NCBI GenBank assembly: GCA_002712945.1 | Contig: PAVA01000009.1 | Span: forward strand, 1-19,868 | Source of the DNA: Citromicrobium sp. | Lineage (GTDB): Bacteria > Pseudomonadota > Alphaproteobacteria > Sphingomonadales > Sphingomonadaceae | Direction: 5' to 3' | DNA: 19,868 bases | In this document: one piece after another, positions 8,524-14,690 of the stretch | Layout: the number at the start of each line of letters is the position of its first letter | Numbering within the stretch: the stretch's first letter is position 1 | Program-made: the position numbers and the translations under genes | Notes under the pieces: model-generated | Told to the model about the DNA's origin: nothing | Seen by the model: only the letters and a program-made list of their open reading frames with translations | Database searches by the model: none

Positions 8524-9678
8524 TCATCCCAGAACCCCACCGCCCAGCGCGCTGTCGTAAAGCCGCCGGTATGTGGCGACCATCTTCGCCTCGTCGAACT
8601 GAGCGCGCGCTTTCGTGCGGTTCGCCGCGCCGATTTCGGTCCGCAAGCTCTCGTCAGCCGACAGTGCGAGGAGCGCATCCGCCAGCGCACCCTCGTCGTT
8701 CGGGCGGACGATGAAGCGCGCGTTTTCCTCCGCTACCATCGCAGCGATATCGCCCACGGCAGGCGCGGCCACGGGCAGGCCGGCAGCCATCGCCTCGACC
8801 ACCGAGAGCGGAAACTGTTCCGAGCGGGAGGATAGCGCGAAGATATCGAACAGGCCGATAAAGGCCTTCGGATTCGCAACGAAGCCCGGCATGTGGACAC
8901 GGTGCGAGATGTCCGCCGCCTCGGCGGCATCGCGGATCGCCTCGCCCTGAGGCCCCTCGCCCACGATCACCAGCTGCCATTCCTCGGGCAGGTGCGCCAT
9001 CGCGCGAACCAGCGCCGAGAGATTCTTGACCGGGCGCAGGCCGGCCAGCGTGCCGACCCATTTCTCGCCCTCGTGCTTGATGACGCCGCGCAGCGCATCC
9101 GCCGGGGGATTTGCCTTGAAACCCTTGGTATCGATCCCGTTGGGGATGTGCTTCACCCGGCCGATCGGCTGCTGCCAGGTTTCGAGCGCGATCCCCTCCA
9201 GCACCTCGGACGGGACGACCAGCCCGCTCGCCTTGCCCAGCGCAATCCGCCGATACCAGTTGCGGCTCGTCTTGAGGCGATCCTGTTCGTCCTCGTTGAA
9301 GCCGTCCTCGTGATGGATCAGCGGCGGCAGGCCGAGCATATCCTTGAACAGGGTGTGCGCCATCACCGCGTCCATCGCGCCCCAGTTATAGGTCAGCACG
9401 AGATCATAGGGCTTCATCGCCTTCGCCAGCGCGTGCAATCTGCCCGGCCACGGCTTGCCCGTGAGCGAGGGGAAGTTGCGCGGATAGCGCACGTCCCGGC
9501 CCCGGGCGATGTGCTCGCTCGCACCATAGGCGTTGGGATCGGCGGAAACGATCGCGTGGGAAAGCTTGCTGCCGAAGGCATTGATCAGCTGGACGCTGCG
9601 CAGCTCCTTGCCCCCGGCCGCGAAGGTCGAGTGAAGATGGAGCACGCGCGGCGCTCCCTCGCGCGCAGCTGCAGGCAT
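8524..9678 (-). CDS. GT4-like family glycosyltransferase
   Basis: This GT-B fold glycosyltransferase has 384 aa. The N-terminal half has RVLHLHSTFAAGGKELRSVQ (11-30), with the glycine-rich acceptor-side loop. The C-terminal donor-binding half has HIPNGIDTKGF (177-187), GTLAGLRPVKNL (209-220), LVIVGEGPQ (236-244) and SSRSEQFPLSVVEAMAAGLPV (283-303). The last holds the E-x7-E nucleotide-sugar motif (E287, E295). The donor and acceptor are not predictable from the sequence; a role in cell-envelope or exopolysaccharide glycosylation is inference. The start at 9678 overlaps the stop of the upstream alpha/beta hydrolase as TGATG, so the two are very probably translationally coupled. The frame stays open much further upstream, but that is the antisense-like shadow of the hydrolase. 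Confidence 0.92.
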   Translation of the reverse strand: MPAAAREGAPRVLHLHSTFAAGGKELRSVQLINAFGSKLSHAIVSADPNAYGASEHIARGRDVRYPRNFPSLTGKPWPGRLHALAKAMKPYDLVLTYNWGAMDAVMAHTLFKDMLGLPPLIHHEDGFNEDEQDRLKTSRNWYRRIALGKASGLVVPSEVLEGIALETWQQPIGRVKHIPNGIDTKGFKANPPADALRGVIKHEGEKWVGTLAGLRPVKNLSALVRAMAHLPEEWQLVIVGEGPQGEAIRDAAEAADISHRVHMPGFVANPKAFIGLFDIFALSSRSEQFPLSVVEAMAAGLPVAAPAVGDIAAMVAEENARFIVRPNDEGALADALLALSADESLRTEIGAANRTKARAQFDEAKMVATYRRLYDSALGGGVLG

Positions 9679-10565
9679 CAGACGGTTTCCCGGGCTTTCA
9701 CCCTGGCGAGCAGCGCGTCGATCGCCGCAGCGGCCTCCGGCTCCTCCAGCGTGGGCGCGTGCCCGGTATCGGGCACGGTGACCGTCTCCATCGTGCGGTT
9801 GCGGGCCTTCATCTGGTGCACCGTCTCTTCCGACAGGAGATCGGACAGCTGGCCGCGCACCAGCAGCAGCGGTGTCTCGTTCAGCGCTTCGAAGGCCAGC
9901 CACAGGTTCGCAGCAGGCGCGCCGCCGCCATCTTCGGCCTCGCGGAACGCATCGCCGATCGCCATGTCGTAGTCGAAGCTGATGCGGCCGTTCTGGCCCA
10001 GCACCATCACCCGCTTGGCCGCCTCCAGCCAGTCTTCCAGCTGGTAGTTCGGGTGAACATCGAAGAACGTCTCTTCCAGTGCCCGCGCGGCGTGCATCCA
10101 GGTTGGGAAACTGCGGCCCTGGCCGACATAGCTGCGGATCTTGTCCAGCCCGCCCTCGTCGATCACCGGGCCGATATCGTTGAGCACCGCGCCCGCCAGC
10201 CGCTTCGAGTCGCCCCCTGCCAGCAGGATCGTCATCAACCCGCCGAGCGAGGTGCCAACGGCGACGAAGCGGTCGATTTCGAGCTCGTCCAGGAGGCGTT
10301 CGACATCTTCGACATACTGGCCGACATGATAGGTGGCCGCGTCGTCGGCGTAGTCGCTCATCCCTCGTCCGCGCATCTCGGGCGCGATCACGCGCCATTC
10401 GGGGGATAGCCGTTCGGCAAGACCCGCGAAATCGCGCGCGTTGCGGGTCAACCCGTGCATGCACAGGATCGGCGGCTGCCCTTGCGTCCCGCCGGAATAG
10501 TCGCGGTAATGCAGTTTCAGGCCATCCGCACTGTGCCAGAATCCATCGGTAAAGCGCTGATCCAT
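9678..10565 (-). CDS. alpha/beta hydrolase
   Basis: This is a 295-aa alpha/beta-hydrolase fold enzyme, probably soluble and cytoplasmic, with no signal peptide. The oxyanion-hole segment is CMHGLTRNARDF (35-46). The nucleophile elbow is VGTSLGG with Ser106. The acid is probably Asp242 in VRGQLSDLLS, and the catalytic histidine is His269 in VPDTGHAPTLEEP. These positions fit a complete, active triad. The substrate cannot be deduced; close family members include esterases, lactonases and dienelactone-type C-C hydrolases. The ATG at 10565 is preceded by an AAAAGAGAG ribosome-binding-like stretch. The frame extends upstream into selO, but that part is a shadow. It overlaps the downstream glycosyltransferase by one base and is divergent from selO. 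Confidence 0.9.
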   Translation of the reverse strand: MDQRFTDGFWHSADGLKLHYRDYSGGTQGQPPILCMHGLTRNARDFAGLAERLSPEWRVIAPEMRGRGMSDYADDAATYHVGQYVEDVERLLDELEIDRFVAVGTSLGGLMTILLAGGDSKRLAGAVLNDIGPVIDEGGLDKIRSYVGQGRSFPTWMHAARALEETFFDVHPNYQLEDWLEAAKRVMVLGQNGRISFDYDMAIGDAFREAEDGGGAPAANLWLAFEALNETPLLLVRGQLSDLLSEETVHQMKARNRTMETVTVPDTGHAPTLEEPEAAAAIDALLARVKARETV

Positions 10566-10635
10566 GGCTCTCTTTTCGGTGTGGGAAAAAGCAGTTCGGT
10601 TGCGCACAAACGCGCGCGCCCCCACTATTGCCGCG

Positions 10636-12036
10636 ATGGCCGACAAACCGCAACCGCGCCGCGAAGAAGCCCCACCGCCCATTCTGGCCCTGGCCGACTG
10701 GATCGGCGATCCGGTCGAACCGGCGCAGTTTCCGCGTACACAGCTGCGCTGGCGTAACGACCGGGCTGCACAGGCCATCGGACTTGCCGACCTGAGCGAT
10801 GACGAATGGCTGGCACATTTCGGCCGGTTCAAGCCTCTGCCCGGAAATCTCGAACGGCCGCTCGCGCTGCGATACCACGGCCACCAGTTCCGCGTGTACA
10901 ACCCGGAGATCGGCGACGGACGCGGCTTTCTGTTCGCACAGGTGCAGGGCGAGAACGGGCGCCTGCTCGATCTCGGCACCAAGGGATCGGGCCAAACACC
11001 CTACAGCCGCGCGGGCGACGGGCGGCTAACGCTGAAGGGTGCGGTGCGCGAATTGCTCGCGACCGAAATGCTCGAAGCGCTGGGCGTCGATACCTCGAAG
11101 ACATTCTCGATCATCGAAACCGGCGAGCAACTGATGCGCGGCGACGAGCCCTCACCCACCCGCTCCGCCGTCCTCACCCGCTTGAGCCACGGCCATATCC
11201 GCATCGGCACCTTCCAGCGCCTGCTCGCCCACGACGAGCCCGGGCACATGCGCGAACTGGTCGACTACTGCCTCGCGCAGTTCCCCGGGCCGCCTCCGCC
11301 CGAGGATGCACCCGATCGCGACGATCCCGCCGTCCGGCTGCTGCATCAGGTGGTCGAGCGGATGGCGGACCTCGCCGCAAGCTGGATGGTCGCGGGCTTC
11401 GTCCACGGAGTGCTCAATACCGACAACATGAACGTCTCGGGCGAAAGCTTCGACTACGGCCCGTGGCGCTGGCTGCCCCGCTGGGAGCCGGGCTTCACCG
11501 CCGCCTATTTCGACCATGCGGGCCTCTATGCCTTCGGTCGCCAGCCCGAAGCGGTCGGCTGGAACTGCGCGCAGCTCGCCACCGCACTGCGCCTGATCGC
11601 GCCTTCGGACGGGTTGATCGCCGCGCTGGAGCGCTTCGGCCCACTCTACGGCCAGCACCTGCGGCGTCGCTGGCTGTGGCGGCTTGGCCTGAAACCGCTT
11701 GGCGAGGAACGGGACGCCGCGCTGATCGCCGCGTGCGAACGGCACATGCGCGAAAGCGGCGCGCAGCCCGACGCCTTCTTCTACGCCCATCGCGGCGGCC
11801 GCACCGCAGGCCCGGAACTCGCTGCGATTTTCGAGGGTTACGAAAGCGTCACCCAGGATCACCCCTACTGGGCGGAGGGAGCGCCACAAGCCATGCTGAT
11901 CGACGAGGTCGAAGCCATCTGGTCCGCGATAGACGAACGCGACGACTGGCAGCCGCTCTATGCCAAGGTCGATGCGCTGCGCCGGATGGGCGATGCCCAT
12001 GGCCCGCCGCCGCACCCTGCCGGGCATCGCAGGTGA
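10636..12036 (+). CDS. selO: SelO (YdiU/UPF0061) family protein adenylyltransferase
   Basis: SelO is a pseudokinase-fold enzyme that transfers AMP from ATP to serine, threonine or tyrosine hydroxyls of target proteins (AMPylation). It is linked to redox homeostasis. The 466-aa product has the family hallmarks: RYHGHQFRVYNPEIGDGRG (residues 79-97), LGTKGSGQTPYSRAGDGRLT (113-132), RLSHGHIRIGTFQ (182-194), HGVLNTDNMNVSGESFDYGP (257-276) and GWNCAQLA in the C-terminal part. Asp263 and Asp273 (the latter in a DYG motif) are the likely catalytic and metal-binding acids. I start at the ATG at 10636. An in-frame ATG at 10564 would add 24 residues unlike the family and overlap the divergent hydrolase start. 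No Shine-Dalgarno precedes 10636. The C-terminus ends shortly after the conserved IDERDDWQPL region, without the cysteine-containing tail of some SelO proteins. Confidence 0.92.
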   Translation: MADKPQPRREEAPPPILALADWIGDPVEPAQFPRTQLRWRNDRAAQAIGLADLSDDEWLAHFGRFKPLPGNLERPLALRYHGHQFRVYNPEIGDGRGFLFAQVQGENGRLLDLGTKGSGQTPYSRAGDGRLTLKGAVRELLATEMLEALGVDTSKTFSIIETGEQLMRGDEPSPTRSAVLTRLSHGHIRIGTFQRLLAHDEPGHMRELVDYCLAQFPGPPPPEDAPDRDDPAVRLLHQVVERMADLAASWMVAGFVHGVLNTDNMNVSGESFDYGPWRWLPRWEPGFTAAYFDHAGLYAFGRQPEAVGWNCAQLATALRLIAPSDGLIAALERFGPLYGQHLRRRWLWRLGLKPLGEERDAALIAACERHMRESGAQPDAFFYAHRGGRTAGPELAAIFEGYESVTQDHPYWAEGAPQAMLIDEVEAIWSAIDERDDWQPLYAKVDALRRMGDAHGPPPHPAGHRR

Positions 12037-12122: not shown

Positions 12123-13538
12123 GTGCCACTCACCGAAATCGCGTCTTACGAACCGGCCACCGGGCGGGAACTCTTCCGCGCGCCTATCGGCGATGTCGAA
12201 GAGGCGGTCGCCCGCGCGCGCGAAGCCTTCCCCGGCTGGGCCTCGCGCCCGGTCGCCAACCGGATGGAAATGGTCCGCCGTTTCGCCAACGAAGTGCGCG
12301 CGGCGGCGGACGACTTCGCGGAGCTGATCGCGCGGGAAACCGGCAAGCCGCTGTGGGAAGCCAAGACCGAAGTCGAGGCGGTGATCGGCAAGGTCGAAAT
12401 CTCGATCAGCGCCTATATGGAGCGCACCGGGCAGAAGAAGCTCGACAGCGCGCTGGGCGGCACCGCTGCGGTGCGCCACAAACCCCACGGGGTGATGGCG
12501 GTGCTTGGCCCCTACAACTTTCCCGCCCACCTGCCCAACGGCCACATCGTCCCCGCACTGATCGCGGGCAACACGGTGGTCTTCAAGCCTTCCGAGAAGA
12601 CTCCGGCGGTCGGCGCCATGCTGGTGGAGTGCTTCCACCGGGCAGGCATCGAGAAAGACGTTGTCCAGGTGCTGATCGGCGGGCCCGAGGAAGGCAAGGC
12701 GGTGGTCGCCCATCCCGATGTGGACGGCGTCCTGTTCACCGGCAGCGCGCAGGCCGGGATAGCGATCAACCGCAAATGCGCGACCAACCCCGGCAAGATT
12801 CTTGCGCTGGAGATGGGCGGCAACAACCCCATCGTGGTCACCCGGACACCCAAGGTGCAGGACGCCGCGCTGCTCATCATCCGCTCGGCCTTCACCACGG
12901 CGGGCCAGCGCTGCACCGCCGCGCGGCGGCTGATCATCACCGAAGACATGTACGACGAGACGGTCGAGGCGGTGAAGGCGCTGACGGCCAAGATCATCGT
13001 CGACGAACCCTTCGCCGAACCGCAGCCTTTCATGGGCTGCGTGATCGACAACCAGGCGGCGGACCAGCTGACCGAGAGCTTCCTCTACCTGCTCTCGAAC
13101 GGCGGCAAGGCGATCCGCCATCTGCGGCGCATTCGCGAGGATGCGCCCTTCGTCGCGCCCGCGCTGATCGACACAACCGCGATGGAAGAGCGCCCCGATG
13201 TCGAGCTGTTCGGTCCGCTGCTGCAGGTCATCAAGGTGCCCGATCTGAACCACGCGATTGCCGAGGCGAACAATACGCGCTTCGGCCTCTCGGCCTCGCT
13301 GATCGGCGGCTCGCCGGAGGACTTCAACCATTTCTGGGCGAACATCCGCGCCGGCATCGTCAACTGGAACCAGCCGACCAACGGCGCATCGTCCAAGGCT
13401 CCGTTCGGCAGGCTCGGCCTGTCGGGCAACCACCGCCCCGCCGCCTATTACGCGGCCGATTATTGCGCCTATCCCGTGGCCAGCAGCGAGATGGCCCAGC
13501 CGCGCGCCGCGCTCGGCGTCGGCTTCAAGGTGGACTGA
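12123..13538 (+). CDS. astD: N-succinylglutamate 5-semialdehyde dehydrogenase
   Basis: This NAD-dependent aldehyde dehydrogenase has 471 aa. It oxidises succinylglutamate semialdehyde to succinylglutamate, the fourth step of the arginine succinyltransferase (AST) pathway. Key residues are Asn132 in GPYNFPAHLPNGHIVPAL, FTGS at 205-208 for cofactor binding, the general base Glu230 in ALEMGGNNP, and the nucleophile Cys264 in AGQRCTAARRL. NFPAHLPNGHIVPAL and the GxVxWNxPTxGASS end are typical of AstD within the aldehyde dehydrogenase superfamily. The start is a GTG at 12123 with GAGGAA about 9 nt upstream. No other ast genes are in the window; the upstream neighbour is selO, 86 bp away. The specific substrate is a family-level inference. 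Confidence 0.88.
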   Translation: MPLTEIASYEPATGRELFRAPIGDVEEAVARAREAFPGWASRPVANRMEMVRRFANEVRAAADDFAELIARETGKPLWEAKTEVEAVIGKVEISISAYMERTGQKKLDSALGGTAAVRHKPHGVMAVLGPYNFPAHLPNGHIVPALIAGNTVVFKPSEKTPAVGAMLVECFHRAGIEKDVVQVLIGGPEEGKAVVAHPDVDGVLFTGSAQAGIAINRKCATNPGKILALEMGGNNPIVVTRTPKVQDAALLIIRSAFTTAGQRCTAARRLIITEDMYDETVEAVKALTAKIIVDEPFAEPQPFMGCVIDNQAADQLTESFLYLLSNGGKAIRHLRRIREDAPFVAPALIDTTAMEERPDVELFGPLLQVIKVPDLNHAIAEANNTRFGLSASLIGGSPEDFNHFWANIRAGIVNWNQPTNGASSKAPFGRLGLSGNHRPAAYYAADYCAYPVASSEMAQPRAALGVGFKVD

Positions 13539-13552
13539 GCCAACCACATATG

Positions 13553-13583
13553 AAAACGCCCCGGCACGGGTATTGCCGGGGCG
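13553..13583 (-). terminator. intrinsic terminator facing left, 10-bp perfect stem
   Basis: The arms CGCCCCGGCA and TGCCGGGGCG enclose a 7-nt loop, and on the minus strand the stem is followed directly by TTTTC. On the plus strand there is no T-run after the stem, so it is not a good intrinsic terminator for astD, whose stop is 18 bases before the hairpin. The orientation implies a transcript coming from the right, where no protein gene lies. Confidence 0.75.
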
Positions 13584-13690
13584 CCTTCCGCGACGCTGGT
13601 GGGACGCCGCGCCTTGGCCCTCGCCATAGCGGGAGCCAAAGATCGTCAGGGTTTCGGGGCCGGTCGGAAGACGCGAGGCGCGCTCTCCGA
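13553..13690 (-). ncRNA. candidate structured small RNA with intrinsic terminator
   Basis: Read on the minus strand, this non-coding stretch folds into four consecutive hairpins. H1 (13664-13690) pairs 11 of 12 positions around a CCT loop. H2 (13612-13641) pairs 12 of 13 around TATG. H3 (13589-13611) pairs 7 of 7 around a 9-nt C-rich loop. H4 (13557-13583) is a perfect 10-bp stem followed by TTTTC. The imperfect pairs favour the minus strand: H1, H2 and H3 together have five G.U wobbles there, which would be A.C mismatches in the plus-strand RNA. Only two positions change the other way. The linker between H1 and H2 (about 22 nt) is predicted single-stranded. The 5' end is not defined and may lie near 13700. 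It is transcribed away from rarD and towards the 3' end of astD. I do not recognise a known family; it is not SRP RNA or tmRNA, and the multi-hairpin shape does not suit 6S RNA. Confidence 0.55.
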
Positions 13691-13700
13691 ATCGACATAT

Positions 13701-13728
13701 GTTCAGAAATAACGCCGTTATCATGAAC
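13701..13728. promoter_or_regulatory. 28-bp interrupted palindrome between the small RNA and rarD
   Basis: The outer arms GTTCA and TGAAC enclose an inner near-perfect dyad ATAACG-c-CGTTAT. It is AT-rich in a GC-rich setting. It lies 48 bp upstream of the rarD start and just upstream of the candidate small RNA. It could be an operator for either or both divergent transcripts. No protein partner can be named. Confidence 0.5.
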
Positions 13729-13775
13729 AGCCAGCAACGCTTGTGCAGTGCAATGTGCAGGACTAGGGGCGGTGC

Positions 13776-14690
13776 GTGAAACCGCCCCATGCCGACCGCT
13801 CCCCCACCGGCCTCCCGCAAGCGCTGGGGGCCTATGTCCTGTGGGGCTTCATGCCGCTCTACCTGCTGCTCGTCCGGCAGGTGCCCGCATTCGAGTTCGT
13901 CGGCTGGCGGATCGTGTGGACCTTGCCGGTCTGCCTGCTGATCGTCGCCTTCCGCGGCCAGATCCCCGCTCTGCGCGAAGCGCTGGCAGACCGCCGCGCG
14001 CTGCTGTTCCTGACCGCCAGCGCGATCCTGATTGCGATCAATTGGCTGACATACGTGTGGGCGATCCAGCAGAATCAGGTCTACGCCGCCAGCCTTGGCT
14101 ACTACATCAACCCGCTGGTCAACGTGCTGCTCGGCACCGTGCTGCTGAAGGAGCGCCTGAGCCGCGCGCAATGGGTCGCCGTCGGCATTGCGGGCGTGGG
14201 CATTGCGGTGCTCGCCGCCGGAGCGCTGACGACGCTGTGGATCAGCCTGACGCTGGCCTTCAGCTTCGGCACCTACGGCCTGCTGCGCAAGCAGGTGACG
14301 GTCGGCGCGCTGCCGGGCCTGACGATCGAGAGCGCGGTCCTCCTGTTCCCGGCGATGGGCATCGCCGCGTGGTACTGGGCGAGCCCGCAGGGCTCCTCTT
14401 TCGACGACAATCTGGGCCTCTCCCTCGCGATCATGGCGGGCGGCGTGCTGACCGCCTTCCCGCTATGGATGTTCGCGACCGCGGCGCGGCGGATGGACTA
14501 CTCGGTCCTCGGCTTCGTCCAGTTCCTTGCGCCCAGCATCGTCTTCATCCTGGGCCTGACGGTGTTCGACCAGCCGTTGAACCCGGCACAGGCCTTCTGC
14601 TTCGGCTGCATCTGGATCGCCGCCGCCATCTTCGTATGGGATCTGCTCGCCCGGCGACGCGCCGCGCGCAGGCCCGCGCCGATCCGCTAG
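13776..14690 (+). CDS. rarD: RarD, EamA/DMT-family transporter
   Basis: This is a 304-aa inner-membrane protein with about ten transmembrane helices in two EamA halves, a member of the drug/metabolite transporter superfamily, RarD subgroup. Family segments are LGAYVLWGFMPLYLLLV (17-33), VGWRIVWTLP near 42-51, INWLTYVWAIQQNQVYAASL near 88-107, YYINPLVNVLLGTVLLKERL near 109-128, and FVQFLAPSIVFILG in the C-terminal half. The conserved WAI..N..YAASLGYYINPL block is strongly diagnostic of RarD. The substrate is not established; chloramphenicol-related roles have been proposed for relatives. The start is a GTG at 13776 with an AGGGGCGG stretch just upstream. Its stop codon abuts the stop of the convergent pyrC without any space. 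Confidence 0.92.
   Translation: MKPPHADRSPTGLPQALGAYVLWGFMPLYLLLVRQVPAFEFVGWRIVWTLPVCLLIVAFRGQIPALREALADRRALLFLTASAILIAINWLTYVWAIQQNQVYAASLGYYINPLVNVLLGTVLLKERLSRAQWVAVGIAGVGIAVLAAGALTTLWISLTLAFSFGTYGLLRKQVTVGALPGLTIESAVLLFPAMGIAAWYWASPQGSSFDDNLGLSLAIMAGGVLTAFPLWMFATAARRMDYSVLGFVQFLAPSIVFILGLTVFDQPLNPAQAFCFGCIWIAAAIFVWDLLARRRAARRPAPIR

Follow-up and report, generated by a model that had tools for sequence, protein, structure and literature searches.

The DNA analyzed here (the window, the whole stretch of 19,868 nt) comes from a Citromicrobium sp. contig, and the RarD that it encodes is 81–84% identical to RarD of Citromicrobium genomes L001, L002 and L020. The spacer between astD and rarD, whose features are collected in Table 1, holds the putative RNA gene described below. 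With both genes on the plus strand and the RNA on the minus strand, astD converges on the RNA and rarD diverges from it. Just upstream of astD lies a plus-strand gene for a SelO-like protein adenylyltransferase (10564–12033; PF02696). Farther from the spacer, the minus strand carries a long open frame (8527–10995) whose C-terminal half corresponds to a glycosyltransferase (TIGR03088, below cutoff) and which overlaps an alpha/beta-hydrolase frame (9678–10979), so that the gene limits there are tentative.

Table 1. Features of the astD-rarD spacer and its flanking genes (window coordinates).
Feature	Position	Strand	Basis or remarks
astD, succinylglutamate-semialdehyde dehydrogenase	12123..13538	+	TIGR03240, 585.1 bits (cutoff 579.3)
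Predicted small RNA, ~148 nt (5′ end ~13700, 3′ end 13553)	13553..13700	-	Fold, conservation
H4, terminator-like hairpin ending in UUUU	13553..13587	-	Fold
H3 (hairpin B), with the proposed seed in its loop UCCCACCA	13589..13611	-	Loop conservation, stem covariation
H2 (counterpart of hairpin A in the ancestral 3′ UTR, CUUUGG...)	13612..13641	-	Homology judged by position and CUU[U/C]GG start
H1	13659..13696	-	5′ CGAUUCGG well conserved, remainder of stem variable
Promoter palindrome GTTCA-N18-TGAAC, overlapping -10-like TATTTC (13711-13706)	13701..13728	-	Comparison of relatives
-35-like hexamer TTGCTG (5′ end 13737)	13732..13737	-	Comparison of promoter regions that do and do not precede the coding sequence
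rarD, EamA-family transporter	13776..14690	+	TIGR00688, 183 bits (cutoff 130.15)

An earlier note, made from the letters of the window, had proposed a structured RNA on the minus strand of 13553–13728, and folds against shuffles, covariation and conservation in relatives all bear this out. The minus strand of this segment folded at −82.1 kcal/mol (z = −3.62), a value equalled by 0 of 200 shuffles, while the plus strand reached −74.8 (z = −1.24; 21 of 200). For the likely transcript (13700–13553) the fold was −74.4 (z = −3.23; 0 of 200), and for its opposite strand −70.0 (z = −1.11; 28 of 200). The minimum-energy fold of 13728–13553 contains five helices (13728–13701, 13696–13659, 13641–13612, 13611–13589 and 13587–13553); the last four match the four hairpins of the note, and the first is the promoter palindrome. 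The excess of wobble pairs on this strand, of which the note had counted five, is real: the fold contains ten G.U pairs, one of them within the palindrome, and across relatives the ratio of G.U to A.C cells was 71:3 in alignment A3 and 46:3 in alignment A2. We also considered an element of the plus strand, such as a rarD leader or an astD terminator, and find it scarcely tenable. The terminator palindrome does fold on the plus strand too, but the plus-strand fold was the weaker one in 12 of 12 sequences, no T-run follows it on that strand, and the 71:3 ratio favors the minus strand; the weaker folds and this asymmetry led us to reject it. We infer that the RNA is transcribed from the minus strand. 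A small ORF within the RNA was likewise rejected: the 11 spacers scanned showed no conserved one with a common start, frame or length, and the other ORFs found run through the terminator.

The last stem ends in UUUU, as the earlier note had it, but a terminator scan that needs at least five Ts in eight did not call it; the sole match of that scan (13731–13714) fell within the promoter palindrome. Upstream, the claim of a promoter rests on the comparison of relatives, not on the generic sigma-70 scan, which called none at this locus. Most relatives carry GTTGC at the -35-like position, and the distance from there to the -10-like element is 18–20 nt, longer than usual. Judged from this spacing, transcription would start near 13700, and the palindrome at 13728–13701 is probably promoter or operator DNA outside the transcript. 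The upstream boundary first given for the RNA (13728) is thus probably about 28 nt too far, since the palindrome precedes the predicted start, and the 140–150 nt first estimated for the transcript agrees with the ~148 nt obtained here, provided that this start holds.

In the genus of G002, a BLAST search of ten genomes with the spacer matched nine, and reading of the tenth, G014, revealed an RNA with an equal arrangement. Within the genus, conservation is concentrated in H3, which had a mean identity of 0.933 among ten spacers, as against 0.674 at astD fourfold sites in nine genomes, and thereby came close to astD codon positions 1 and 2 (0.949). All 10 of the 10 aligned copies, that of the window among them, have the H3 loop CGUCCCACCAGCG, and CGTCCCACCAGCG was invariant in the same number of aligned sequences, while the H3 stem showed a double change from G-C to A-U. 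In the outlying G014, which was not aligned, the loop differs and reads TACCCCACCAAG. Mean pairwise identity in H1 was 0.857 at 13694–13687 vs 0.471 at 13686–13660 (10 spacers), and individual relatives fold differently in this region. Five of the 12 pairs of H2 were changed on both sides among ten sequences, and its loop is not of the CCCACC sequence in the window's genus.

The earlier note had named covariation among relatives as a check on the structure, and in the alignments that we built the stems covary above shuffles while the H3 loop stays fixed in 10 of 10 sequences. Alignment A3 holds ten sequences, the window among them; it misplaces H1 of L001 and L090, and H1 was therefore left out of the A3 pair counts. 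Alignment A4 holds 38 sequences (L003, L007, L013, L014 and L015 were left out of 43). Under the H2-H3-terminator structure, 97.7% of the A3 cells pair. Counted on structures derived from these same alignments, cells changed on both sides numbered 13 in A3 (4.6 in shuffles), 29 in A2 (7.8) and 130 in A4 (34.7), with 0 of 500 shuffles in each case. In A3, seven pairs were changed on both sides (3.7 in shuffles; 9/500), and further pair types were not above shuffles (129/500); in A4, 14 of the 15 pairs of H4 were changed on both sides. The A3 covariation score was 0.291, compared with 0.226 in shuffles (0/500) and 0.042–0.160 for slid controls, over which the structure is favored because it was derived from A3 itself.

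The wider family gave this spacer a history. We searched 148 genomes for rarD, found it in 84 at E ≤ 1e-70 and examined the best 65, leaving out G077, whose rarD is partial, and the 18 weakest; the gene discussed next was scored as absent where the first 1500 nt held nothing that tblastn matched at E ≤ 1e-4. A glycine-zipper gene was present at this locus in 45 of the 65, usually behind the same promoter motif. In near relatives it lies on the minus strand and commonly encodes some 150–180 aa; the protein begins with what by eye resembles a signal peptide and contains a glycine-zipper region, and both of the proteins tested matched PF05433. The window and all ten of the ten genus genomes have no such coding sequence at this locus; four of the ten carry a different glycine-zipper gene elsewhere. 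A lipoprotein-like gene (~235–240 aa), also on the minus strand, stands between the glycine-zipper gene and astD in L003, L005, L008 and many other relatives, and is absent from the window.

Directly after the stop codon of the glycine-zipper gene, relatives carry the H2-H3-terminator module. The hairpin loops of this region are of the CCCACC type (exactly CCCACC in 18 of 38); the hairpins come in tandem, one to three per locus, and are followed by a terminator. Their stems vary while the loops stay, with each of six inner pairs taking at least four forms. A CCACC-loop hairpin with a stem of at least six pairs lay within 130 nt of the stop codon in 28 of the 45 gene-bearing genomes, and the median distance from the stop to the first such hairpin was 18 nt. 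The controls yielded 1 on the opposite strand, 0 with GGTGG loops, and a mean of 0.89 (maximum 3) in 100 dinucleotide shuffles. By this comparison, the H2-H3-terminator module of the window is homologous to the 3′ UTR of the glycine-zipper gene.

Model R1, comprising H3 and the terminator and built from 19 sequences of this locus, was searched in 149 genomes of the family and matched 28 times, in 27 of them. Of these matches 26 lay at this locus, 20 with the glycine-zipper gene and six without it; no fewer than eight of the 26 are in genomes whose sequences went into R1, and the lean of the matches toward this locus follows from how R1 was built, a bias that the rarD-based sample avoids. The remaining two (L120 and L123) were ordinary terminators elsewhere, and apart from these R1 finds this locus once per genome, on which ground we rejected a dispersed repeat. 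Weak matches in L026 and L032, at Novosphingobium-like loci, appeared to be the terminator alone and were not counted. Across the order, 38 of 296 genomes matched R1 at E ≤ 0.01, a figure that may include ordinary terminators, as only three new loci had their flanks read; all three were at this locus, that of G316 without the gene. The search for carriage on plasmids gave no match.

The promoter region is shared as well. In the 700 nt nearest to rarD, the pattern GTT[CA]A-N10-22-TGAA[CT] occurred in 51 of 72 regions by raw count, namely in 38 of 45 with the coding sequence and 13 of 27 without it, one of the 13 (G147) probably by chance. By this pattern G131 has no palindrome, and the palindrome of L012 does not fit it. 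The layout GTTGC...GTTCA...TA...TGAAC is thereby common to the window's locus and the gene-bearing regions (38 of 45), and the predicted promoter of the RNA is, on this comparison, that of the former glycine-zipper gene.

The coding sequence has been lost and the RNA kept in the window with its genus, and in four lineages besides. Of the 65 genomes in the rarD sample, 20 had no gene at the locus; seven of these keep the RNA and 13 do not. Another 17 have the gene and no CCACC hairpins. Genomes without hairpins belong mostly to distant lineages, with G141, G071, G093 and G085 as exceptions. RarD identity to the window was at most 58% in ten of the 13 genomes that have neither gene nor RNA, a range in which the hairpins are also missing from every gene-bearing genome sampled. 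Above 58%, seven of ten gene-less genomes keep the RNA, so retention is frequent within the hairpin-bearing group and not universal; the other three are G093 and G141 and G071, the last two with differing rarD neighbors (by eye).

The stand-alone RNA was found in the genus (including G014), in G053, G131 and G316, in L012, in G031, which also has a short reading frame that looks like a remnant of the coding sequence, and in G076. In an IQ-TREE phylogeny of RarD and AstD, with 56 hand-chosen taxa (the near-identical genus members L086–L088 are among those left out) and an outgroup, L029, that has neither gene nor RNA, the stand-alone copies fell in five separate places, each with gene-bearing neighbors; G316 was placed by similarity only. 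Support was 100 for the genus with G014, for G053 with G131, and for L012 with the gene-bearing L004, and moderate for G076 with G114 (90) and G031 with G029 (78); several deeper nodes were weak (47–65). A first FastTree had set G014 (L095) apart from the genus, a placement that we dropped: IQ-TREE joins the two with support of 100, and we therefore count five losses of the coding sequence, the number required under a loss-only model, and not more.

These observations bear on what the spacer is. It is very probably the gene of a small structured RNA, formerly the tail of an mRNA, and we hold with considerable confidence that this gene, now standing alone, goes back to an mRNA that lost its glycine-zipper coding sequence. 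In the ancestor, the promoter would have driven a gene for a glycine-zipper 2TM protein, a state kept in most near relatives, followed by a 3′ UTR with one hairpin or two, their loops of the CCCACC type, and a terminator. Loss of the coding sequence in the window's genus would then have left the promoter, with its -35 at 13737 and -10 at about 13711, to make directly an RNA of ~148 nt, starting near 13700 and ending at 13553, in which a new and fast-changing 5′ part (H1) precedes the old 3′ UTR (H2, H3 and the terminator). The earlier note's view of an undescribed small RNA thus holds as regards a structured RNA outside any Rfam family, although this is not an isolated gene: its past as a 3′ UTR was not seen by that reader. 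An sRNA that arose independently in the spacer, unrelated to any mRNA, as the note implied, is what the window alone would suggest, there being nothing else to see in it; that origin is now highly improbable, contradicted by syntenic gene-bearing relatives with the same promoter layout and a homologous 3′ UTR.

The hairpins might instead have done nothing but stabilize or terminate the 3′ end of the mRNA, so that the stand-alone form would be a decaying relic without function. The loss of the gene, the drift of H1, the linker and the H2 loop, and the failure of our 9-mer search to bring up a recognized target all fit such decay. Yet promoter, H3 and terminator are kept in the window and ten genus genomes, H3 far exceeds the fourfold sites of astD in identity, the RNA was kept through losses of the coding sequence in five places of the tree, and a fixed CCCACC loop would presumably be needless for a terminator or stabilizer; we consider a relic unlikely. 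Since promoter and folded tail stayed while the coding sequence vanished in several lineages, we favor a tail with a job of its own. That the RNA repeatedly survives without the protein argues that it works by itself, and we infer that it had its own job before the coding sequence was lost, for instance as an sRNA released from the mRNA. Where the glycine-zipper protein is still made, the 3′ UTR of its mRNA would seem to act as an RNA as well.

The RNA could be assigned to no known family by the earlier note, and the Rfam search that we ran agrees: the window gave sub-threshold matches only, with no family at its gathering score, and eight relatives gave no match at E ≤ 1. sX13 of Xanthomonas is likewise a hairpin RNA, and its loops are C-rich. 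The window scored 17.4 bits against it (RF02232), whose gathering score is 50, and is not a member. Small RNAs derived from 3′ UTRs are well described, OppZ and CarZ of Vibrio cholerae among them (PMC7398697), and the homology to an mRNA 3′ UTR by which such RNAs are known was found here. The source of the RNA is alike, and in relatives the module still stands behind a coding sequence; OppZ and CarZ, however, arise by cleavage of mRNAs that still exist (PMC7398697), whereas in the window the coding sequence has been lost and the RNA would come straight from the old promoter. SgrS in Yersinia, an sRNA without the sgrT reading frame of relatives, resembles our case in that the RNA outlived the loss of a reading frame in the same transcript (PMC4021124). 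SgrS is, however, an sRNA with a small ORF of ~40 aa (PMC4021124), while here an ordinary gene of ~150–180 codons lost its coding sequence, in five places of the tree. In the one open library covered, we found no report of this RNA, nor of an mRNA that repeatedly became an sRNA gene when its coding sequence was lost.

GsrN of Caulobacter pairs through a C-rich loop with a G-rich mRNA leader (PMC5869019). Both it and the window's RNA are alphaproteobacterial, with an exposed C-rich loop as the most conserved part, but the GsrN loop has six tandem Cs, from which the loop here differs, and the section of the report at hand mentions no link of GsrN to an mRNA (PMC5869019), whereas the window's RNA would be a former 3′ UTR. 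GsrN is also marked by its position near sigT-phyR, while the locus here is astD-rarD, at which no sigma-EcfG promoter was recognized by eye against the EcfG consensus; the layout present is GTTGC...GTTCA...TGAAC. The analogy with the C-rich loop of GsrN is what makes the H3 loop a probable seed. The earlier note had pointed to C-rich loops and a C-rich linker as possible pairing sites; the H3 loop is indeed conserved, but the H1 CCU loop and the linker vary within the genus (mean pairwise identities among 10 spacers of 47% for the remainder of H1 and 59% for the linker, as against 93% for H3), so only the H3 loop is credible as a seed. A conserved unpaired stretch, as expected of a trans-acting sRNA, was found in this loop (10 of 10 aligned; G014 differs). 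As the likeliest mode of action, we put at about even chances that the exposed CCCACC loop of H3 would act as a seed for G-rich stretches of other mRNAs.

As target query we used TGGTGGGAC, the 9-mer complementary to the H3 loop, with its backwards sequence as control. Among the matches listed, query and control gave 18 vs 25 in G002, 19 vs 12 in G009 and 18 vs 18 in G012, so that the query did not clearly exceed its control. From these three genomes 52 sites were taken, the RNA's own copy excluded, and 22 had an orthologous counterpart: 19 within open frames, often as Trp-Trp-Asp codons, a location that says little because G+C-rich DNA abounds in open frames, and three on the opposite strand of a tRNA-Leu gene. 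No conserved site before a start codon was recognized among the 52 with this 9-mer, and the pairing with ribosome binding sites that had been suggested for the RNA is unproven, this single search having brought up no recognized mRNA target. The CCCACC loops could also be sites for an RNA-binding protein, in a sponge or in the control of mRNA decay, rather than base-pairing seeds. The recurrence of one short loop in tandem hairpins, one to three of them, whose stems vary freely would suit a protein, as would the lack of a conserved RNA target in our search, but we know of no protein with a preference for such loops and regard this as doubtful. In a second lineage of stand-alone copies, pyrimidine-rich linkers (CCUCCUCCUCCC; CUCCUCCCUCUCCACCCC) lie beside CCACC-loop hairpins (L116:1501–1640 and L216:1400–1565). 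These linkers, which we take to resemble anti-Shine-Dalgarno motifs, are CU-rich and would suit pairing with ribosome binding sites.

The origins of new sRNA genes are hard to trace, as they leave few marks. Here gene-bearing relatives, a possible intermediate with a remnant (G031) and stand-alone forms are found side by side at a single syntenic locus, which lets one read in what order things happened. We lean toward a recurrent birth of sRNAs, in which deletion of a coding sequence fuses an old promoter to a useful 3′ UTR RNA, at least five times at one locus, and selection may keep the RNA and not the protein. The family, absent from Rfam, offers a short loop motif that can be tested in culturable marine alphaproteobacteria. 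Two further observations concern the predicted start. The palindrome GTTCA-N18-TGAAC recurs on the -10-like element at this locus across the group and is a candidate regulator site. A GATTC site (window 13694–13687) lies near the start in the window and all ten genus spacers; it fits GANTC, presumably the CcrM methylation motif, and control by the cell cycle is possible.
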